Shown in pieces: positions 33,300 to 41,607 of a stretch of 64,000 bases of DNA. Below the pieces are notes generated by a model. It was not told the origin of the DNA, searched no databases, and saw only the letters and a program-made list of their open reading frames with translations. The DNA is from Flagellimonas marinaquae. GTDB taxonomy: Bacteria > Bacteroidota > Bacteroidia > Flavobacteriales > Flavobacteriaceae. The stretch spans positions 523,001 to 587,000 of the forward strand of contig NZ_CP092415.1 of the NCBI RefSeq assembly GCF_023716465.1, read 5' to 3'. The number at the start of each line of letters is the position of its first letter. Within the stretch, counting starts at the first letter, position 1. The translations under genes and the position numbers were made by a program.

Positions 33300-33324
33300 G
33301 TGACCCAGGGAGGATTCGAACCCC
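33300..33324 (-). other. attL: 25-bp copy of the tRNA-Arg 3' end
   Basis: Identical over 25 nt to 41533-41557, covering the T-arm and acceptor 3' strand of the tRNA-Arg gene (on the plus strand it begins GTGACCCAGGGAGG). Beyond base 25 the two copies diverge. A direct repeat of a tRNA 3' end is the standard footprint of an integrated element. Confidence 0.88.
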
Positions 33325-33377
33325 ATCCGTTAGCCCTTAAGTTTATTGACTTGTGCCTTGCTTATGTTTTGTAACAA

Positions 33378-33392
33378 ACCGAATTACAGACC
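33378..33392 (+). promoter_or_regulatory. Candidate integrase arm-type site, left end
   Basis: ACCGAATTACAGACC matches the right-end copy at 41415-41429 in 14 of 15 positions and in the same orientation. It lies 53 nt inside attL. The pairing of near-identical sites just inside both ends suits integrase arm binding; this is inference. Confidence 0.4.
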
Positions 33393-33486
33393 ACTTTGAG
33401 CAATCTCCTTTCGTATAAGCCAAAATTAATCAATAATTATCAAATAGGGATAAATATCTATCCAAGTAAGAACTATGTAAACTGTT

Positions 33487-33504
33487 AATCGTTTATTTGA
33501 ACTT
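33487..33504 (-). repeat. Cassette-boundary repeat R1
   Basis: Perfect copy of AAGTTCAAATAAACGATT (gene sense). It follows the stop codon of the last cassette gene (33522) by 17 nt and closes the array on the attL side. Confidence 0.85.
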
Positions 33505-33521
33505 TACCATTTTCATTTTAC

Positions 33522-34388
33522 CTAATAATCTATTAAATACCTGTTTTTAAACTCTTTGATTTGATTTTCCTCATAAAAAGGAACCCCTGGTTGAGTGCCA
33601 AATATTTGCTTTCCATCCATTCTCCAATGATATCGGTCCACCAGAAGTATGAATATGTTTTCACTCAAATCCTCATTTTGGTATGCTTTCAAAGCATATG
33701 GAAATAATGTGCTAAAAACTTCCAACTTGTTTGTATGTGTCATTATAACAGCTGCATTGGACGCAAATTTTGAACCAACTAAAGAAATTCCAGGATAACC
33801 ATGTTTCCTACATATCTTATACAATGCCTCACTATTGGCATCATCCAAGATCCTTTGCTTTTCAATCAGGGTTTGGTCCTGAAGAAAATTCGGCAAACTC
33901 CGATATTCTTGATCTTTGGCAGACAAAGTTTTTATAGTGTCTATTAGACCAAAGTTCAACTGTTTTGCAGGGACATGGCTATCGGATACATTTTGTCCCA
34001 TTTCTGCCTTATCAGGTGTTACCTTGGTTTCCATTAGATCAATGAATTTCTTACCCAACATTTCATGAAATGGAAGTTTTTCGATACTTCCATAATATCT
34101 TGAACTATCATCAATCAAACCTTGAAACTTAACATTGTTCTTGGCTTTACTTTTCAATAACAGAACTTCTACTTTGTCTATGTCTTCCGATAATAAACAA
34201 TGGGCAAGTGCCAAGTTCCAATAATCGGCATATGTGGTATCCTTTGACCTGGACAATAGCCTAGTAGTATTTTCAAGAATCTTTTGACCATATTCAAGCT
34301 TGAACTCCTCGGTCATTTTTGGTGCTCTGATTTGACTTGCCAATATATTGGCGATGAATAAGAATAAAATAAATGTTATTTTTTTCAT
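33522..34388 (-). CDS. Secreted DUF6624-like cassette protein
   Basis: 288 aa. Signal peptide MKKITFILFLFIANILAS, a helical region, then a C-terminal domain with ICRKHGYPGISLVGSKFASNAA, DRYHWRMDGKQIFGTQ and the FYEENQIKEFKNRYLIDY end. This pattern of 'HGWPGxSLVG ... GxPQxYGTQ' is that of DUF6624 proteins, which often occur beside toxin or immunity genes; function is unknown. It is the last cassette of the array, flanked by repeats R1 and R2. Confidence 0.65.
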   Translation of the reverse strand: MKKITFILFLFIANILASQIRAPKMTEEFKLEYGQKILENTTRLLSRSKDTTYADYWNLALAHCLLSEDIDKVEVLLLKSKAKNNVKFQGLIDDSSRYYGSIEKLPFHEMLGKKFIDLMETKVTPDKAEMGQNVSDSHVPAKQLNFGLIDTIKTLSAKDQEYRSLPNFLQDQTLIEKQRILDDANSEALYKICRKHGYPGISLVGSKFASNAAVIMTHTNKLEVFSTLFPYALKAYQNEDLSENIFILLVDRYHWRMDGKQIFGTQPGVPFYEENQIKEFKNRYLIDY

Positions 34389-34416
34389 GAGCTTGCTTTA
34401 ATCATACAAGGAATTT

Positions 34417-34434
34417 TATCGTTTTATTGAACTT
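34417..34434 (-). repeat. Cassette-boundary repeat R2
   Basis: Variant copy (AAGTTCAATAAAACGATA, 15/18) in which CAAATAAAC is replaced by CAATAAAAC, the same variant as R6. The 16-nt AAATTTCCTACATTTA just before it recurs before the degenerate copy at 38520-38540. Confidence 0.75.
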
Positions 34435-34508
34435 TTATAAATGTAGGAAATTTAGTTCGGGCAAAAAGGATAGTAATAAGCTATACATAATGTCAAGAAC
34501 AAGCTTTT

Positions 34509-35099
34509 CTATTTATTGTTTTGAGTCTCCTCACGTAAATCTAAATCCATTTGTAATTGTATTGCCCAAAATGCCCCATTTTCCATAGCCTTAGAGTCCG
34601 CAAGTTGAATTTCATCTTTTAGTTTTTCAAATTGATCATCAGTAAAGTCAGAATCTAGGTAAGCATCTTCTCCATTTTCTTCGAGAATCGTGTCTACGAA
34701 GTTTCTATAGGCTAGTAAACATTTAGCAAGTCTAGAAATATCAGAATTGAAAATCCTAGAGGAAAAATAATCTTCGTGATCCAAAAACTCAATTCGGTCA
34801 CCCTGTTTGGTATTTACAACAATTGGGTCGCCATCACTACACGAGCCAATTACAACATACTTTTCGAATTCAGGTTCTAAAATGTCATAGACTTTGTTAA
34901 GCTTATGAACTCCATCAAATAAGTCCTCAGAGTTTTCAGAAAATGAAAGGAATGGAGAGGCACTGTCAGGCAAACCAGAGTTAACCAAAAATTCAATTGT
35001 TTCACAACATAACCCGAGCCCCCTTAATCTTTCGGCACTTATAGGGTTTAAATTGTCTTCAATAGAAGTCCATTTTTGCTTAAAATCTTCTGGTGTCAT
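34509..35099 (-). CDS. SMI1/KNR4 (SUKH) family immunity-like protein
   Basis: 196 aa. The SUKH pattern is visible: an N-terminal helix with LRGLGLCCETIEFLVNSGLP (about 26-45), the FLSFSENSED strand-turn, then YVVIGSCSDGDPIVVNT and IEFLDHEDYF (about 80-115), and a final helical region. SUKH proteins are immunity proteins against bacterial polymorphic and contact-dependent toxins. No toxin gene is next to it, fitting an 'orphan immunity' role. It is flanked by repeats R2 and R3. Confidence 0.75.
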   Translation of the reverse strand: MTPEDFKQKWTSIEDNLNPISAERLRGLGLCCETIEFLVNSGLPDSASPFLSFSENSEDLFDGVHKLNKVYDILEPEFEKYVVIGSCSDGDPIVVNTKQGDRIEFLDHEDYFSSRIFNSDISRLAKCLLAYRNFVDTILEENGEDAYLDSDFTDDQFEKLKDEIQLADSKAMENGAFWAIQLQMDLDLREETQNNK

Positions 35100-35192
35100 C
35101 AGCTTGTATCTAACTTATTGATATGGATGAAAAATACATCTATGCACACCCGATATGGCATATAACAGATGTATTTGATTATCTTCTATTGG

Positions 35193-35210
35193 AATCGTTT
35201 ATTTGAACTT
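35193..35210 (-). repeat. Cassette-boundary repeat R3
   Basis: Perfect 18-nt copy, 23 nt after the stop codon side of the 72-aa gene and about 90 nt before the SUKH gene start. Confidence 0.85.
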
Positions 35211-35233
35211 TAATTTAAAATAAAAAGGTGTAA

Positions 35234-35452
35234 TCAATCTATCCATTCAATCTTCCAATCATTTTCAAAGATGTAACCTTTGACATCATTTTCAGTTTCA
35301 AGCCAAGTATCAAAACCCTCATCACCCTCAGGATCTTCAAATTCATTTATATAAAATCCTCCTGTATGCTCACGATCATCAATAAATTTCACAAACCATC
35401 CGAGGTTGTTTCCTTCTTTAATTTTGCCTAAAATACCATACTTGAGTTGCAA
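35234..35452 (-). CDS. Small acidic cassette protein
   Basis: 72 aa with a TTG start (35450-35452); no in-frame ATG is near. Very acidic, with tryptophan/aromatic-rich segments (NNLGWFVKFIDD, FDTWLETENDV, FENDWKIEWID), a composition common among small immunity proteins that mask basic toxin surfaces. I recognise no named family. It lies between repeats R3 and R4. Confidence 0.6.
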   Translation of the reverse strand: MQLKYGILGKIKEGNNLGWFVKFIDDREHTGGFYINEFEDPEGDEGFDTWLETENDVKGYIFENDWKIEWID

Positions 35453-35482
35453 TTCTTTTCTATTTTATTTCAAGGTTATCAC

Positions 35483-35500
35483 AATCGTTTATTTGAACTT
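35483..35500 (-). repeat. Cassette-boundary repeat R4
   Basis: Perfect 18-nt copy, 4 nt downstream of the stop codon of the 96-aa gene (stop at 35504-35506 in plus coordinates). Confidence 0.85.
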
Positions 35501-35503
35501 AGG

Positions 35504-35794
35504 TTACTTGGTGAATTTTGATTCAATGATTTTTCCATTTGCAATATCAACTAAAACAGTAAACCCGTTCCATGTTGATGATTGGATTAATCCATCTTTC
35601 CGTATAATCATATCATTTGAATAACAATCCTTTTCATTTGGCAATTCAGCAAACCAAATTAACTGTCCCTCCTGATCTTTTGCATAGATGTTACTTTCCC
35701 CCTCAGGATAGTCAATATAATTTTCACGAACAATATGAATTCCTTTAACTTGTAAGCTCTCGACTATTTCTGTATGTATGGCTTGAAGCTCCAT
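35504..35794 (-). CDS. Small cassette protein of unknown function
   Basis: 96 aa. The ATG is formed at the edge of repeat R5: the final AT of the repeat (…AAACGAT) plus G starts the gene. The product looks like a single beta-meander domain with YPEGESNIYAKDQEGQLIWFAELP and WNGFTVLVDIANGKIIESKF. It has no signal peptide or membrane helix. No family recognised; the size and setting suggest an immunity-type protein. Confidence 0.6.
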   Translation of the reverse strand: MELQAIHTEIVESLQVKGIHIVRENYIDYPEGESNIYAKDQEGQLIWFAELPNEKDCYSNDMIIRKDGLIQSSTWNGFTVLVDIANGKIIESKFTK

Positions 35795-35809
35795 CGTTTA
35801 TTTGAACTT
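35792..35809 (-). repeat. Cassette-boundary repeat R5
   Basis: 17/18 match. It overlaps the stop codon (TAA, 35808-35810) of the upstream gene and the ATG of the downstream gene, so the two cassettes abut at the repeat. Confidence 0.85.
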
Positions 35810-36203
35810 ATCTATTAAGAATTGAATCTCTGTAATCAATCCATTTTTGTAAATCTCCTTTCGACTTTTCAACATCAAAGAAGAAAGGACTAGAACCATC
35901 TGAAGCTTTTAATTCAAGGCTGCTCAAAATATTTCCGATACATGGCATCGCAAGTTCATTTCCTCTTATATGCATTACGAAACCATTGAAATCCTCAGAT
36001 TCACCCATGTTAAATTCAATAGAGAATTGTCCGTTCTCCAATATCCCCCATGATGGATTTGAAAAATCTACCGTAGGTTCAACTGTCTTGATCTTATCAA
36101 TGATTTCTGACCTAAAACCAATTGATTTTGGTTCAAAGTCATCGGCAATCTCATCCAAAGAATCAAAATCTCCCCAGTCTTGCACGAATAAATCCCAACT
36201 CAT
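35808..36203 (-). CDS. Conserved cytoplasmic cassette protein (MSWDLFVQDWG family)
   Basis: 131 aa. The start MSWDLFVQDWGDFDSLDEI and the following GFRSEIIDKIKTVEP...DFSNPSWGILENGQFSIEFN pattern recall a family I have seen as short hypothetical proteins in many phyla, often in polymorphic-toxin immunity loci or gene-cassette arrays. No catalytic motif is visible. It lies between R5 and R6 with its stop inside R5. Confidence 0.65.
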   Translation of the reverse strand: MSWDLFVQDWGDFDSLDEIADDFEPKSIGFRSEIIDKIKTVEPTVDFSNPSWGILENGQFSIEFNMGESEDFNGFVMHIRGNELAMPCIGNILSSLELKASDGSSPFFFDVEKSKGDLQKWIDYRDSILNR

Positions 36204-36211
36204 TTTGATAC

Positions 36212-36229
36212 AATCGTTTTATTGAACTT
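36212..36229 (-). repeat. Cassette-boundary repeat R6
   Basis: Variant copy AAGTTCAATAAAACGATT (16/18). It encodes the last residues and stop of the upstream gene (CAA GTT CAA TAA, ending ...QVQ) and lies 8 nt before the next ATG. Confidence 0.82.
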
Positions 36230-36512
36230 GTATTATTTCATTTTTAATATTTTCTGGAACATTTATCCAAACAGTTTCTTTGGTTAAACTAAGCTCGCAG
36301 AAGCATTCTTGGTGGACAACTTCAATTATATGATTATACCAATCAAAATATGTCCAATCCGATGGTTTGGGTGAATAAAGAGTTTGGTTTTGAGAGTCCC
36401 AATGAACTTGTGTTGCTGTTCTATATATCAGAGTGAACTTTTGCTCAGCTGGACTAATATTAAGACGGCCTAGGGTATCAATCTCTACTTTCTTTATTAC
36501 ATCTCTCTTCAA
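36219..36512 (-). CDS. Small cassette protein, unknown function
   Basis: 97 aa with a TTG start at 36510-36512; no in-frame ATG exists between the repeat R7 and this point. Features: RLNISPAEQKFTLIYRTA, then VHWDSQNQTLYSPKPSDWTYFDW (aromatic-rich, about 36-58) and ETVWINVPENIKNEII. The last two sense codons and the stop are supplied by repeat R6. No named family; soluble and cytoplasmic by composition. Confidence 0.6.
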   Translation of the reverse strand: MKRDVIKKVEIDTLGRLNISPAEQKFTLIYRTATQVHWDSQNQTLYSPKPSDWTYFDWYNHIIEVVHQECFCELSLTKETVWINVPENIKNEIIQVQ

Positions 36513-36519
36513 CCTTTTG

Positions 36520-36537
36520 AATCGTTTATTTGAACTT
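36520..36537 (-). repeat. Cassette-boundary repeat R7
   Basis: Perfect 18-nt copy between the disrupted membrane-protein gene and the 97-aa gene. Confidence 0.85.
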
Positions 36538-36569
36538 TAAATTCTGTTATACTTCTTGCACATCAATTT

Positions 36570-37084
36570 TTACTCAATATTTATTTTTTGCAACCCAAAA
36601 GGAGTTTCTTTAAATAACGAATCTTTAAAGGTTAGAAAAAGTATTTCACTGTCATTTCTATTCATTCTCAGTAAATAGCTTTTAATTCCAATAGTTTTGA
36701 TTTGAACACGAAGCTTTTTGCTAAGAAACAGTTTCTTATAAGAGATTTTAAGTATTTTTTCTTTTTCAACTTTACAACTTGACCTTCCCAATCAAATTCA
36801 ATCCCATTTTCAAATAAATGAAAATCCGTTTCTGTCCATTTTTTAATATCCGATACTTTTGAGCCAATCCATCCTAAGACCAAAGAACCTGCGAAAAAGA
36901 AATAACCATGTTGAGGGATAATTGTACCATAGTAGAAAATGGACGCATCAATTGGAAGGTTTTTTCCAGTTCCAAGAATATACAGTGTAATCACAAATAT
37001 CACCATGGCTACCAATATCCAAATAAGACCAATTTTTGATAGCCAATTATCTGTTCCATATTCTATGCTTACAGTTTCCTCCAA
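36570..37084 (-). pseudogene. Frameshifted membrane cassette protein
   Basis: Two overlapping minus-strand frames make one protein. The first (from TTG at 37084) has two membrane helices (about 15-37 and 56-75) and reads to FDWEGQVVKLKKKK; the second (to 36570) continues KEKILKISYKKLFLSKK... to GLQKINIE. The change of frame falls in the A-rich run around 36755-36775 and is explained by one inserted or deleted base. The full product would be about 170 aa: two helices, then a cytoplasmic domain. No family is recognised. Confidence 0.65.
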
Positions 37085-37105
37085 ATTATAATACTTGATT
37101 GTCCG

Positions 37106-37123
37106 AATCGTTTATTTGAAATT
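37106..37123 (-). repeat. Cassette-boundary repeat R8
   Basis: 17/18 copy (AATTTC in place of AAGTTC), between the 72-aa membrane gene and the disrupted membrane gene. Confidence 0.82.
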
Positions 37124-37153
37124 TGTTGATTTTAGTTTTAGGCACAACAATTA

Positions 37154-37372
37154 TTAATAAATGAATTCCTTTCCTGATATGAAATTGCCACCACCGATTA
37201 TCACCAATCCGATGATAATTGAAATGGTCAATGCTATTATTATGATTGGACCAAAATCTAAAACATTTTCAGTTCCATCATTGTTGTATTTTATTTCTCG
37301 TTTAAACAAAAAGGAAATAAATAAAGCGATAAATCCAGTTCCAAAAACAATTCTTGCGAAGGTTCTGTTCAT
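37154..37372 (-). CDS. Small membrane protein with two helices
   Basis: 72 aa, ATG at 37370-37372. Helix 1 FARIVFGTGFIALFISFLF (about 4-22), a short KREIKYNNDG loop, helix 2 IIIIALTISIIIGLVIIGGG (about 43-62). The form is that of a hairpin membrane protein, e.g. a membrane-bound immunity protein, but no family is recognised. It lies between repeat R8 and a degenerate copy at 37456-37473. Confidence 0.55.
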   Translation of the reverse strand: MNRTFARIVFGTGFIALFISFLFKREIKYNNDGTENVLDFGPIIIIALTISIIIGLVIIGGGNFISGKEFIY

Positions 37373-37455
37373 AGATTTATGATATCGAGCTTCTTCAAAT
37401 CTTAAGAATTGAATATTGTTTTGTTCTAACGTATAAATATACTCGTCTTTTGAGC

Positions 37456-37473
37456 CTACGTTTATTTTAGTTC
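37456..37473 (-). repeat. Degenerate cassette-boundary repeat
   Basis: Only 11 of 18 positions match, including the CGTTTATTT core (plus strand), but it lies exactly where a boundary repeat is expected between two cassette genes. Confidence 0.4.
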
Positions 37474-37778
37474 CTTTTTTTTACTAACCTTTTAAAATTT
37501 TTGTGCCTTATGTATTTGTAATCAATACCATTGATTACATATTTTCCTTTATCTGTATAAAGTTCAACCCAATAACTTGAAGCAGGTAACGATTGCTTTT
37601 TAAAGCTTGGCTCCCTTGTTAGGGTTAAACTAATATTTGTCAAATCGCTCACTAGTGGAGAAGGGGTCATCAAAAAGGTGAAACATATTAAAAGGAAAAA
37701 AACTATAGTCCCTCCTAAGTAAAATTTACGCTTTTCTTTAAATGTAAGCCCTTTCCATTTTCTTCCTTTATCAGACAT
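37467..37778 (-). CDS. Single-helix membrane cassette protein
   Basis: 103 aa. A basic start (MSDKGRKWKGLTFKEKRKF) precedes one membrane helix (about 23-42, LGGTIVFFLLICFTFLM), and an exported or cytoplasmic 55-aa beta-rich domain follows with YWVELYTDKGKYVINGIDYKY. Could be a membrane-anchored immunity protein; no family recognised. The Cα-rich basic tail overlaps the degenerate repeat. Confidence 0.55.
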   Translation of the reverse strand: MSDKGRKWKGLTFKEKRKFYLGGTIVFFLLICFTFLMTPSPLVSDLTNISLTLTREPSFKKQSLPASSYWVELYTDKGKYVINGIDYKYIRHKNFKRLVKKRN

Positions 37779-37812
37779 TAATTAAAATTAATACAACCCT
37801 CTAAACTGATTT

Positions 37813-37830
37813 AATCGTTTATTTAAACAT
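37813..37830 (-). repeat. Cassette-boundary repeat R9
   Basis: 16/18 copy (ATGTTTAAATAAACGATT) between the GLPGLI-like gene and the 103-aa gene. Confidence 0.78.
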
Positions 37831-37854
37831 TGTTTTGACTCCTTTGTTTGTAAA

Positions 37855-38499
37855 TCATTGTGATTTTTCAATTAGGACTGCATCTTTAGGTATTTCAAAT
37901 TCACTGTTATCTATTTTAAGTGTTTCAATTTTAATAGCTTCTTGAGTTATTTTCATTCCTCCACTTAATGACTCGTATCTTAGAATAACAGATTTTGTAA
38001 GTTCCATAATCTTATTCAAATTGTCTTGTCTGTAGTTTTTATAATGATTTGGGTTTTGTTTCAGATCTGGTGCAAAATAACAAAGTAGTACAGAACCGTT
38101 ATTTTTATCAGTAACAATCAATTTATCACATGCATAACCCAAAATATTATCTGAATTCCTTTCAATACTATATTCAAAATCAAAGTCACTAAATTTTCGA
38201 TAATCTATAAAATAGAGAGTGTCAGATTTAATTTTCTCCTTGTAATAACAAATTGGATTTGATGAATTATATAACTCGTATGGCTTAAAATTACCGTTTG
38301 TGATTTTTTTGTAGGACCCTTCTTTGGTGATGATATTGGTTGTGTCTCCCATAAAAACCAAAAAGCTTTGTATATCAAATGAATTTCTCTCATCGATTTT
38401 TTCACAGGAATTCATGTATGTTATTCTACCCTCAAATTCTTGTGAAAATATTTGATTAGATAGAAGAAACAAAATGAGTAGTATAGCCTTTTTAATCAT
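37855..38499 (-). CDS. Secreted GLPGLI-like protein
   Basis: 214 aa. Signal peptide (about 1-19, ends IFSQ), then a beta-strand-rich domain with FEGRITYMNSC, SDTLYFIDYRKFSDF, DNILGYACDKLIVTDKNNG (about 117-135) and the C-terminal FEIPKDAVLIEK. The order recalls the GLPGLI/DUF4412-type periplasmic proteins of Bacteroidota. First gene of the array on the recombinase side. No function is known. Confidence 0.6.
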   Translation of the reverse strand: MIKKAILLILFLLSNQIFSQEFEGRITYMNSCEKIDERNSFDIQSFLVFMGDTTNIITKEGSYKKITNGNFKPYELYNSSNPICYYKEKIKSDTLYFIDYRKFSDFDFEYSIERNSDNILGYACDKLIVTDKNNGSVLLCYFAPDLKQNPNHYKNYRQDNLNKIMELTKSVILRYESLSGGMKITQEAIKIETLKIDNSEFEIPKDAVLIEKSQ

Positions 38500-38519
38500 C
38501 CTATTATTAGTTTCTTAGT

Positions 38520-38540
38520 TATCATCATTGTTTAAATGTA
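38520..38540 (-). repeat. Degenerate boundary repeat at the recombinase end of the array
   Basis: TTTAAACAATGATGAT (gene sense) resembles TTCAAATAAACGATT with an indel. It is preceded by AAATTTCCTACATTTA, the same 16-nt sequence found before R2, which supports common origin. Confidence 0.35.
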
Positions 38541-38593
38541 GGAAATTTCCAAAAACCAAGAATTCAGTTTTCGGTGAAAGGAGAGTTAAACAG

Positions 38594-39258
38594 TCAATCA
38601 GATTTGATTTTCCTTTTGTGCCTATTACAATTGGCTTTGTCAATATCCTGTTTCTTGTCCCAAAACAAAATTCCACATTCAATACACTTTCTTCTGCCTT
38701 GGTACGCCAAATATTTATAGAGGGTCTTTTTAGAACCAACATCAATGAGTTTCATGATTTCTTCAATGCTTAACTTGTTGTCCCTGTAGTATCGTTCTGC
38801 CAACATTGCTTTGTTCAATGCCTGTTTACTGAGACCAGGCTTCCGACCAATTTTCAATCCACGTCTTCTTGAGCTTTCCATTCCTGCCCGTGTACGTTCA
38901 ATAATTATATCTCGTTCCAATTAGCGAACAAATTGAAGATAAACCTTCCATGAGGGGATGTGGTATCAATGAAGCTTTCCTGAATACTCTTGAAGTGGAT
39001 TCCTTTTTTTTCAAAGTCCTCAATGAGTTTAGTGAGATGTGAAAGGCTTCTGGCGATTCGGTCCAGTTTCCAGACTACGAGAGTGTCACCTTCACGCAAA
39101 ATGGACAAAAGTTCATCAAGTCCCTTTCTTTCCGCTTTTGCTCCAGATGAAATATCGGCATAGATGTTCTTGGGTTTGATTCCTTCCTTTAAAAAGGCAT
39201 CCACCTGTAAATCGTGTTTCTGTGATTTTGTACTCACTCTTGCATAACCGAACTTCAT
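38594..39258 (-). pseudogene. Serine recombinase (resolvase/invertase family), frameshifted
   Basis: Two frames. The first (39258 to 38905) holds the catalytic domain: MKFGYARVSTKSQKHDLQ with nucleophile Ser9, LVVWKLDRIARSL, then HGRFIFNLFA. The second (38920 to 38594) continues ERDIIIERTRAGM and a DNA-binding domain with the helix-turn-helix LSIEEIMKLIDVGSKKTLYKYL. In intact relatives NLFA...ERDIIIERT is continuous, so one base is missing near 38918-38922 (AATTGG where AATTTGG would keep frame). It carries a Cys/His tail (CIECGILFW...CNRH), possibly a zinc finger. It may have served inversion, resolution or cassette movement. Confidence 0.85.
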
Positions 39259-40031
39259 CTTAGGTGTAAAAAAGGGTATATAAGGTAAACTATTTAAGTG
39301 TACCGAAAAAGTAAACTCTTTGGAATCAGTGAACTTGTTTAAGAGTGAAAGTTCAAAAAAACGGTGCCTTAAAATCTACTGATTTAAAATGAAATTCCAA
39401 TCAAAGGCGAACGCAACGCAGTGGAGTGCTGCAAGCCCCAAATCTTGCCAAACTAACCTTACTGAGCGAGGCAATTTTATCTATTAATACGGTATACTCT
39501 TCTCATCATTCGAAGTGATCCAATGGTTTGTTGGCCTCAATTTTATATCGTTCCAATCTCCATTCTGTTATTTTAAGCTTTAGATTGCTTTTCCATAGGT
39601 GCGATTTTGTTTTTTAGTGAAATTGCGCCAATTTTTTCGTCAAAAATTTCCAGTGTTTACAGGGCCTGCCAAAGGGTTTAATGTAGATTTCGGAAAAGTC
39701 TACTGTAGCCCCAATTTTTGCACAGTATTTCAAATACTATTCAATTAACTGGTTTTCAACTTTTTGAACACCCAAAAACAACCGTGATGGCGCAATTTGC
39801 GCATCACCCTCTTGCTATTCATTTTTTCACGCAAGCGTGAAAACCCAAATACCTTTCAATAGTGTATAGATTATCAATTAACTAAGTGGTGGTTGTTTCC
39901 TTGGAGCTATTAATTGAACTTATCTTTCCGAACATTATAAAATTGCAACAGGGACCAAGTGCAAAAGTTTGGGTAAGAAATGGGACTTTTGATACGTCTT
40001 GGTTTAAAAAGAAGGAGATCAGAGTTCCTTT
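39259..40031. other. Non-coding 0.77 kb between the two recombinases, with hairpins
   Basis: No convincing gene on either strand. Two hairpins stand out: 39784-39807 (GTGAT-GCGCAA paired with TTGCGC-ATCAC, one bulge) and 39824-39843 (TTTTCACG-CAAG-CGTGAAAA). The block TTGAACTTATCT at 39914-39925 also occurs at 35802-35813 within R5 and its flank and equals one half of the cassette repeat. The region could contain recombination sites or the promoter feeding the array. Confidence 0.45.
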
Positions 40032-41239
40032 TCAATGGTCAAAATTTCCAAACCTTTCCTTTGCAATATTTGTTTCTGACATTTTTTTGTCCAGTATGGT
40101 ATCCAGTCCGTCCATGTCCTCACTTATCTTTCTGTCCAGCACCCGTGCATAGATCTGGGTGGTGGCCAATTTAGTATGCCCCAATATCTTCGAGACCGTC
40201 TCTATTGGCACCCCGTTACTCAAGGTAATCGTAGTTGCAAATGTGTGCCTTGCCATGTGAAAAGTGATATTCTTCTTTATTTTACAAGCATCTGCCAACT
40301 CTTTGAGATAACTGTTCAGTTTTTGGTTCGAGATGCTTGGGAATAATTTTTCCGGGCTCTTTTTCGGGTGGTAATGGTATCTCTTGATAATGGCTAGGGC
40401 AGGACCTATTAGGGGAAGCTTGAAGGCGTTCTTGGTCTTTAGCCTTTTGGTACTTATCCAATGTTTTCCATCTATTCCCAGAATTAGGTTATCCTCTCCA
40501 GTTCCATCAGATCACAATAGGAAATGCCAGTGTAACAACTGAAAACAAATAGGTCCCTGACAATGCGTAGCCGCTCAATACCCGTATAGTATTCTTGAAT
40601 GTCCTGTAGTTCCTGCAAGGTCAGGAACTCCTTTTCTTTTCTTTCCATCTTTACTTTGAACCTGCGGAAGGGATCTCTGTCTATCCATTCATTGTCCAAA
40701 GCCATTCTTGTCATCTTGCGCAGGCGTTGGATATGCTTCATCGCTCCATTATTTGAGAGCTTTTCATGTTTATGCCTGGGATAGAGTTTGCGAAGGAACG
40801 TCTCAAATCCGACAATAAACTTATGGTCTAGCTGTGAAATTGGATAATCGTCGCTTTTATATTGTTCATTGATATACTTCAATAGGTAGTTCTGTGTCGT
40901 CCTGTAATGCCTCAGGGTAGCCTTGCACAAATTGTGGGCGCAATGCACATTGTGGTGCTCGAAGAGTGTCTTTATTTTTATATTACTCCCGTCTTCACCA
41001 AAATAGTGAGCCTTGACCATCTGTGGTGTAACATAGTGGGATTTAGATCTTAATTCTCGATAGCATTGAAAAAGTTCTGTTTCAACCTCCATCAGATAGG
41101 TGTTGATTTCCCTTGCCTCTTTGGTATGTCCCGAATCCCTCGACCCTTTTCTATCCCAAATTACTATCGGGATAGTATACTTCAAACTCATGTTAATCCT
41201 TTGTGAATCGACCGTGATACGGGCATAAATATTTACCAT
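40032..41239 (-). pseudogene. Tyrosine recombinase (phage-integrase family), frameshifted
   Basis: Reads as a 400-residue integrase of the Bacteroidota mobile-element type once one base is restored. Part 1 (41239 to 40484): arm-binding domain (IYARITVDSQRINMSLK), SAM-like core-binding domain, and the start of the catalytic domain (LFVFSCYTGISYCDLMELER). After LER a single missing G near 40485-40490 shifts the frame. Part 2 continues DNLILGIDGKHWISTKRLKTKN, then HMARHTFA (HxxR), ILGHTKLATTQIYARV with the catalytic Tyr. The first catalytic Arg is replaced (TGIS). Upstream of the ATG, FSISFW-like codons (about 41246-41270) look like the true N-terminus without a start codon. Confidence 0.88.
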
Positions 41240-41414
41240 TCCGCCAACGCTCCTTGCTATACTTATCCAAAAACTAATGGAAAATATTGATCATGTTCTC
41301 ATAGGATTTGTGTTAAATCCAACGATTTTAAACTACGAAAATCAAATGCCAAACATTTGTAATACTGTTAATTACAAATTAATTCAGTTAACATTATCAA
41401 TAAAAATCTTACTA

Positions 41415-41429
41415 ACCGAATTACAAACC
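41415..41429 (+). promoter_or_regulatory. Candidate integrase arm-type site, right end
   Basis: ACCGAATTACAAACC, 14/15 identical and in the same orientation as 33378-33392, lies 104 nt inside attR between the integrase gene and the tRNA. Confidence 0.4.
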
Positions 41430-41476
41430 AAAAAAGGTCAAATCAAACCATATCATATGATAGCTCAAAAAAGTCA

Positions 41477-41515
41477 AAACCTTGCAAATCAATAAGATAT
41501 GCAAGGTTTTGTTTT
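41477..41515. terminator. Island-borne terminator downstream of tRNA-Arg
   Basis: An 11-bp stem AAAACCTTGCA / TGCAAGGTTTT has a T run on each strand. On the minus strand it lies about 20 nt after the tRNA 3' end, so it replaces the displaced chromosomal terminator at 33256-33292. Confidence 0.75.
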
Positions 41516-41532
41516 TGTTTAAAACTTAAAAA

Positions 41533-41557
41533 GTGACCCAGGGAGGATTCGAACCCC
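41533..41557 (-). other. attR: 3' end of the intact tRNA-Arg shared with attL
   Basis: 25 nt identical to 33300-33324. It restores the T-arm and acceptor end of tRNA-Arg so that the host tRNA stays functional. Confidence 0.88.
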
Positions 41558-41607
41558 CAACCCTCAGAGCCGAAATCTGATATTCTATCCAGTTGAACTA
41601 CTGGGCC
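41534..41607 (-). tRNA. tRNA-Arg, anticodon UCG
   Basis: 74 nt without encoded CCA. The acceptor pairs GGCCCAG with CTGGGTC, the anticodon stem is TCAGA/TCTGA, and the loop TTTCGGC places UCG at 34-36 (reads CGA/CGN codons). The T-loop is GGTTCGAATCC. It is the insertion target of the island. The yqeY stop is only 9 nt upstream on the same strand, so the tRNA may be cut out of a yqeY-tRNA transcript. Confidence 0.95.

Follow-up and report, generated by a model that had tools for sequence, protein, structure and literature searches.

Integrons are the model for modular gene capture, and they are tied to one recombinase family and to folded attC sites. Here we consider an array of short genes separated by an 18-bp repeat in Flagellimonas marinaquae, which lies in a window of 64,000 nucleotides (contig 1 of the genome, positions 523001-587000), and compare it with integrons and with three other described systems, namely the rAID clusters of gut Bacteroidales, the Gin/Hin invertases together with the Tn3/gamma-delta resolvases, and tRNA-targeting islands. 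The sequence evidence suggests an integron-like cassette platform made of other parts, in which the cassettes carry 18-bp sites, are likely moved by a serine recombinase and travel on a tRNA-Arg island; we put the probability of this reading at roughly two in three. We also lean towards regarding the system as a second, independently evolved integron, in which a Gin/resolvase-type serine recombinase would act on an 18-bp double-stranded site within tRNA islands, with a cassette pool open across species and genera.

With integrons, the array shares short, co-oriented and mostly single-gene cassettes with a site at each junction and changing neighbours at that site, a recombinase gene with a promoter-like block at the head, a very diverse cargo, shuffling between arrays, and one window protein that belongs to a Pfam integron-cassette family. 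It differs in that the site is a plain 18-bp one and the head recombinase is of the serine class and co-directional with the cassettes. Two features that define integrons, the IntI integrase and the attC partner, appear on this evidence to be lacking. Indeed, the integron integrase model (TIGR02249), run on the own genome only, gave 24 weak matches, none of them above the curated cut-off. The rAID clusters are defined by a tyrosine recombinase with orphan immunity genes (PMC12247911). They resemble the present array in having a recombinase upstream of co-oriented short genes, conserved intergenic motifs, SUKH cargo and the same phylum, and they differ from it in that the tightly linked recombinase here is a serine one and the cargo is mixed, a comparison drawn from their published description (PMC12247911). 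A rAID-type upstream tyrosine recombinase was present at some array heads, was not seen at others and was also found in array-free islands. The rAID parallel drawn in the original prediction, which was made from the letters of the window, thus holds for the layout and not for the enzyme and cargo, as the serine recombinase is the one most tightly tied to the arrays and the tyrosine recombinase shows the behaviour of an island integrase. The Gin/Hin and Tn3/gamma-delta enzymes supply the nearest solved structures, the same catalytic residues and repeated motifs beside the gene; here, however, many direct 18-bp sites bound unrelated genes, and not one invertible segment or res site. Finally, tRNA-targeting islands share the tyrosine recombinase by a tRNA gene, the duplicated tRNA 3' end and the empty site in a relative, and differ in that the cargo here is a recombining cassette array.

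In the literature searched, which mostly did not extend to subscription papers and so does not establish absence from print, we found no description of an 18-bp cassette system. If the proposed reading is correct, cassette capture evolved more than once, with another enzyme class and a plain 18-bp site. The platform would also open a way to follow the movement of large pools of small unknown genes among marine Bacteroidota, and it could serve as a testable counterpart to rAID arrays, whose assembly still lacks an explanation. As the site is short, cassettes are easy to detect in any genome.

Nine cassettes with about ten genes make up the array in the window; all of them run on the minus strand, and a site also follows the last gene. 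When the 18-mer was searched with up to three mismatches, 10 matches were found in the window against 0.28 expected, and none of 100 shuffles reached 10. Nine copies lie on the minus strand between 33487 and 37830, while the remaining match, the head site, is on the plus strand at 39349. In the frame of the original prediction, the minus-strand copies at 33487, 35193, 35483 and 36520 are perfect, those at 35792 and 37106 carry one mismatch, those at 36212 and 37813 two and that at 34417 three. These positions and mismatch counts are the ones that had been read from the letters, as is the picture of about ten short minus-strand genes with the repeat between them and beyond the last. The conserved 18-bp word, AAAGTTCAAATAAACGAT, begins one base to the left of that frame and is weak at its last base. 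Across 188 distinct sites (up to two mismatches) the word has sharp edges, with information of about zero on both sides; the conservation inside the word is biased by the selection of sites and that outside is unbiased. In the own genome, 31 matches (up to two mismatches) were found against one for a reversed-pattern control, clustered at 297, 556-561, 980-987, 2476-2479 and 3123-3129 kb, with single sites at 311, 658, 2441 and 3508 kb. A weight matrix, with a score of at least 14 as the site cut-off, gave 41 sites in ten stretches of this genome and none in the reversed control. The features of the array and its island are given below in window coordinates (ORF, open reading frame; G and L numbers denote genomes and loci compared); every cassette site was found by both the 18-mer search and the weight matrix.

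33300..33324, minus strand: far attachment site of the island, a 25-bp copy of the tRNA-Arg 3' end (matches tRNA positions 51-75 without a difference; a relative has the empty site)
33325..33487, minus strand: conserved right end of the island (94% identity to the same-tRNA island in G017, 81% to L065)
33488..33505, minus strand: 18-bp cassette site, distal end of the array
33506..34417, minus strand: cassette 9 (ORF 33522-34388, 288 amino acids; DUF6624 below cut-off; 96% copy in L147)
34418..34435, minus strand: 18-bp cassette site (variant)
34436..35193, minus strand: cassette 8 (ORF 34509-35099, SUKH-4 immunity protein, Pfam PF14435, 5.7e-12)
35194..35211, minus strand: 18-bp cassette site
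35212..35483, minus strand: cassette 7 (ORF 35234-35452; 81% copy in L242)
35484..35501, minus strand: 18-bp cassette site
35502..35792, minus strand: cassette 6 (ORF 35504-35794; 12 homologs including itself, 11 with Pfam accession PF25857)
35793..35810, minus strand: 18-bp cassette site overlapping a start codon
35811..36212, minus strand: cassette 5 (ORF 35808-36203, 83 homologs, no Pfam family; copies in L189 at 96-97%, L197 at 75% and L216 at 71%)
36213..36230, minus strand: 18-bp cassette site (variant)
36231..36520, minus strand: cassette 4 (ORF 36219-36512, Hfx_Cass5 integron-cassette family, PF18287, 1.4e-17; 92% copy in L301)
36521..36538, minus strand: 18-bp cassette site
36539..37106, minus strand: cassette 3 (ORFs 36570-36791 and 36668-37084; 97% copy in L160)
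37107..37124, minus strand: 18-bp cassette site
37125..37813, minus strand: cassette 2 (ORFs 37154-37372 and 37467-37778; 96% copy in L076)
37814..37831, minus strand: 18-bp cassette site (variant)
37832..38527, minus strand: cassette 1, head-proximal (ORF 37855-38499; DUF4412 below cut-off; no 5' site scoring at least 14, a degenerate version by eye only)
38528..38580, minus strand: promoter-like head block with TTCCTACATTTA (shared by 17 of 34 heads, where it keeps set distances to the head site)
38594..39258, minus strand: array-type serine recombinase gene, broken into two frames (PF00239, 4.8e-32, N-terminal frame; compared with intact relatives)
39275..39319, minus strand: two AGTTTAC-type motifs of the head, putative res-like subsites (head alignment, 25 loci)
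39348..39365, plus strand: inverted head site L1, AAAGTTCAAAAAAACGGT (18-mer search)
40035..41230, minus strand: broken tyrosine recombinase of the island (its two pieces share 88% and 75% amino acid identity with the intact L106 protein)
41533..41607, minus strand: tRNA-Arg(tcg), integration target of the island (duplicated 3' end)

Evidence for movement comes from the cassettes themselves. All comparisons here were between species, not strains. Among 452 distinct segments, 70 pairs were homologous over their full length; both flanks were unrelated in 58 of these, one was related in 8 and both were related in 4. Among the related-flank pairs are some from head regions and an array stretch that two species share almost unchanged. 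The 58 pairs represent 36 independent clusters, in which the mean identity falls from 0.75-0.80 inside to 0.29 outside, with the step at the site edges. For example, two cassettes of L064 are present in L083 at 98-99% identity, in reverse order and non-adjacent. Six of the nine window cassettes have copies elsewhere at 81-97% identity, five of the six at 92% or more; the test for unrelated flanks covered five of them, and the sixth (36213-36540, in L301) ends at the sites. Gene order is, then, not conserved among the relatives, and breakpoints fall at the site edges. The comparisons show cassettes being exchanged and reordered, evidently by recombination at the 18-bp sites. An age gradient along the arrays was considered and rejected, as site scores showed no trend with rank counted from the head end (13 arrays, n=113, rho 0.03).

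What recombines appears to be the plain site. No clear inverted partner was found within 150 nt of a site (441 sites, with complementary matches counted rather than folding), and this result, together with the lack of conservation outside the 18 bp, led us to reject attC-like R''/R' arms. The best complementary partner averaged 10.5 matches upstream and 10.6 downstream against 10.4 in the shuffled control. Sites with at least 12 matches numbered 65 and 63 against 47 in the control, slightly above it, and those with at least 13 numbered 8 and 13 against 11, not above it. Turnover at the site and the lack of attC-type partner arms agree with the earlier suggestion of a functional parallel to integrons without attC hairpins. 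By inspection, the halves AAAGTT and AACGAT form an imperfect dyad within the site. As a separate observation, the site core GTTCAAAT (window 33488-33505) resembles the tRNA T-loop GTTCRAAT (tRNA end 41533-41557), at or near which the duplicated island ends begin; this likeness may reflect chance or common origin.

Between sites (segments of 200-3500 bp), the longest ORF runs in the direction of the site in 403 of 426 cases, and at least two ORFs of 70 amino acids or more were found in 69. The 397 site-direction ORFs of at least 60 amino acids have a median length of 150 amino acids, and the median spacing is 29 bp between the site and the start codon and 14 bp between the stop codon and the following site. 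The 395 cassette proteins group into 315 families, of which 259 are singletons. Pfam was run on 300 of the 315 family representatives, and the cargo picture is drawn from the best 25 of 101 and the best 25 of 92 families; ParE toxin, DinB, the metallo-beta-lactamase fold, peptidases, methyltransferases and many DUFs are among those listed. In the window, the scan covered nine cassette proteins (ORFs 36570-36791 and 37154-37372 were left out) and gave one SUKH-4, one Hfx_Cass5, two DUFs below cut-off and five without a match. Twenty further cassette proteins from eight loci include SUKH-1 (own genome, in another array), RhuM-Fic, an esterase and an outer-membrane barrel, and 12 of the 20 gave no family match. 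Among 150 representatives, 55 PADLOC families match, the first 25 of these being candidate (PDC) models with one member each. Judged by these matches, the cargo is mixed and mostly not immunity. The original prediction saw here a marine-flavobacterial collector of immunity genes; the turnover of cassettes at the short repeat bears out the cassette system, whereas the focus on immunity is not supported, with one such protein among nine in the window and a mixed cargo beyond it.

Two observations on single cassettes should be added. The cassette 4 protein (36219-36512) falls in Hfx_Cass5, a Pfam family named for integron cassettes, and this membership hints that cassette genes cross between integrons and the 18-bp system. 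About 110 bp right after a cassette site (window 35105-35213) recur after sites in L077, L082, L093, L296 and others, and are perhaps a shared regulatory segment.

The enzyme most closely associated with the sites is a serine recombinase of the Gin/resolvase type, whose gene heads many arrays and is preceded by an inverted site, usually ending in ACGGT. Its best solved relatives are the DNA invertase 4m6f (1.1e-36), which we take to be Gin, and gamma-delta resolvase. The resolvase catalytic domain is kept, with R7, S9, R67 and R70 invariant in nine aligned sequences; seven of the nine also have a C-terminal Cys-x2-Cys...Cys-x2-His tail (e.g., L083 7175-7846), which the RES_B type does not. In 60 genomes of the genus, matches over most of the protein were either 54-100% or less than 45% identical. 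From the former we took 30 loci, with the earlier array loci set aside; L304 and L305 rest on short fragments, and L305, in which the gene was not detected, was dropped, leaving 29 loci centred on the array-type gene. At least one downstream cassette site was found in 23 of these and at least two in 22. Around the 29 genes there are 140 direct sites downstream, no direct site upstream and no inverted site downstream. In 21 of the centred loci an inverted head site is found no more than 250 bp away, and besides the head sites there is one distant inverted site upstream (L285, 662). Ten loci of other serine recombinases had no cassette site. Site counts were higher in genomes with a copy of the recombinase, intact or not (median 10 vs 3, p=3e-5, relatedness uncorrected), and the gene was present in 20 of 22 genomes with at least 8 sites, 9 of 21 with 3-7, 4 of 11 with 1-2 and none of six with no sites. 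The repeat is, with this linkage, not a genome-wide element unconnected to recombinases. From linkage and polarity we infer, as the best reading, that the serine recombinase would be the enzyme that moves the cassettes.

When 25 heads were aligned, the inverted site, two AGTTTAC-type motifs and the start of the recombinase could be recognised. The promoter-like block, CACCGAAAACCCAATTTTT...TTCCTACATTTA, occurs in 17 of 34 heads. Its distance from the inverted site is 833 bp in nine gene-bearing heads (823 in the window) and 176-187 bp in seven that lack the gene. No copy of the block was seen in nine RES_B heads, three heads that are more diverged and four other RES_A heads, and the block is one base off in L164. 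A recognisable site begins 12 bp after the start of CCTACATTT in five of the 17 block heads, with only degenerate versions, by eye, in the others. The gene-less heads (L059, L064, L077, L078, L086, L087 and L350) keep the head region, including the surroundings of the gene start, and are about 646 bp shorter, as expected if the serine recombinase gene was deleted.

In the mechanism that we propose, a cassette consists of one (sometimes two) genes and one 18-bp site, and arrays change by site-specific recombination at these sites. The serine recombinase would bind the site through its AAAGTT-type half, and the inverted head site with the AGTTTAC motifs may form a res-like control region. Cassettes would be excised between direct copies and inserted at another copy, and would be driven by the promoter-like head block. 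The window array is carried by an 8.2-kb tRNA-Arg island, which has a tyrosine recombinase of its own.

Several points weigh against the serine recombinase as the mover and should be considered when referring to this mechanism. Intramolecular reactions are what small serine recombinases of this class are chiefly known for, and capture of a foreign cassette is not a textbook activity of theirs. The head site points the opposite way to the cassette sites. All three array-type copies in the own genome are broken, as is the tyrosine recombinase in the window. Two of the 22 genomes with at least 8 sites, G270 (25 sites) and G268 (9), have no array-type serine recombinase, and the head of the large G270 array keeps paired inverted sites with the gene gone. 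G178, from another genus and with 45 sites (up to two mismatches), showed no array-type gene in the stretches examined. Six of the 29 centred loci have no site; L281 and L289 are at contig ends, and more than 12 kb was searched in L288, L291, L295 and L303. The site consensus did not differ clearly between serine-recombinase clades, and crossover mapping by linkage between neighbouring sites gave no clear signal (668 sites, 112 arrays). Of the positions in the site, only the first goes clearly with the upstream cassette (6% vs 31% mismatch, 36 representatives). As the window recombinases are broken and arrays occur in genomes without the gene, the window array may be frozen or served in trans.

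The window array sits in an 8.2-kb island (33300 to 41532) bounded by 25 bp of the tRNA-Arg(tcg) 3' end, and in the relative G012 both island flanks are contiguous across the tRNA, which is an empty site. The duplicated end and the empty site show, at the level of sequence, a tRNA-targeting genomic island. The G017 island at the same tRNA is 83-86% identical at the recombinase end and leader and 94% at the right end; within the cassette region the similarity is confined to pieces of about 35 bp around the sites. A tRNA gene was found, at varying distance, in 15 of the 27 array stretches scanned (L059-L065, L076-L095). A copy of the tRNA 3' part starting at or near the T-loop was found in seven further loci (L064, L065, L077, L078, L080, L087 and L094), and no such copy of at least 15 nt in L059, L086 and L093.

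The island's tyrosine recombinase (Arm-DNA-bind_5, SAM_5, Phage_integrase) might itself move both island and cassettes in a rAID-like manner, with the serine recombinase as an accessory, a possibility that we consider unlikely. Integron and rAID recombinases do belong to the tyrosine class, the T-loop that the site core resembles lies at or near the start of the duplicated island ends, and tyrosine recombinases stand upstream of, and co-directional with, several heads, often about 650-700 bp from the inverted site. They also occur, however, where arrays are lacking. Matches in the own genome number 21 for tyrosine recombinases and 4 for serine recombinases. For tyrosine recombinases of the L065 type (at least 80% identity), 23 matches were found and 20 examined (16 at L336-L351, plus L065, L078, L080 and L276); arrays accompany only 7 of these, some of them with the recombinase at the head, which is again a point against the serine enzyme. 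Twenty more distant tyrosine recombinases, chosen outside the known array loci and thus biased low, gave no array and one single site. Ten of the 13 site-free loci also have homologs of part of the island right end (33325..33487), so that the tyrosine recombinase serves array-free islands. In addition, L279, L282, L285 and L287 have the serine recombinase at the head and no match to the tyrosine recombinase queries in 7 kb upstream. The tyrosine recombinase would thus appear to behave as the island integrase. Separately, a tyrosine recombinase converges on the array at L064 10557-11847, L084 2215-3445, L158 5663-6874 and L258 889-2164, where its match stops from a few to about 40 bases from the last cassette site.

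That some other recombinase moves the cassettes in trans, or that whole islands are exchanged by homologous recombination and the 18-bp word is no more than a junction scar, is quite improbable in our view. Arrays do occur in genomes without a linked serine recombinase, and transfer of whole islands does happen: a stretch of at least 10,788 bp of array, starting from tRNA-Met, is 100% identical between two species (G000 and G018; L062 8214-19001, L085 4751-15538), while the adjoining flank is only 81.5% identical, which indicates a very recent transfer. Nonetheless, single cassettes, and not blocks alone, swap neighbours with breakpoints at the word in the 36 clusters, and 18 bp is short for homologous recombination. 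That the word serves regulation or the start of translation and takes no part in recombination, as its place just after stops and just before start codons might suggest, is hardly credible given the copy past the last gene, the inverted copy at the head and the breaks in inter-array homology at the word on both sides.

Beyond the own genome, in which it punctuates several arrays, the site was searched as a 17-mer with up to one mismatch and was present in 53 of the 59 other genomes examined from the genus (Muricauda/Flagellimonas group). When 198 other genera of the family were sampled with one genome apiece, 8 had an exact copy of this 17-mer, and no 18-mer with up to one mismatch was found in 23 genomes from other families. 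Allomuricauda, Flagellimonas, Muricauda, Maribacter, Arenibacter, Aquimarina, Pricia, Ulvibacterium and Euzebyella are among the matches listed; single matches in unrelated phyla are probably due to chance.

A phage origin of the system was considered and rejected: six viral-contig stretches have one exact site each, recombinase relatives in phage records are 46-47% identical, and among the 80 best of 447 viral loci such relatives reach at most 49%. Two Aureispira plasmids carry recombinase relatives of 53-55% identity, with no comparable array in their annotation (the plasmids were not scanned for sites). A distinct serine recombinase is 100% identical in four genomes (L306, L307, L308 and L313), adjoined in three of them by an identical tyrosine recombinase, and its copy in the own genome lies on the 48-kb second contig.

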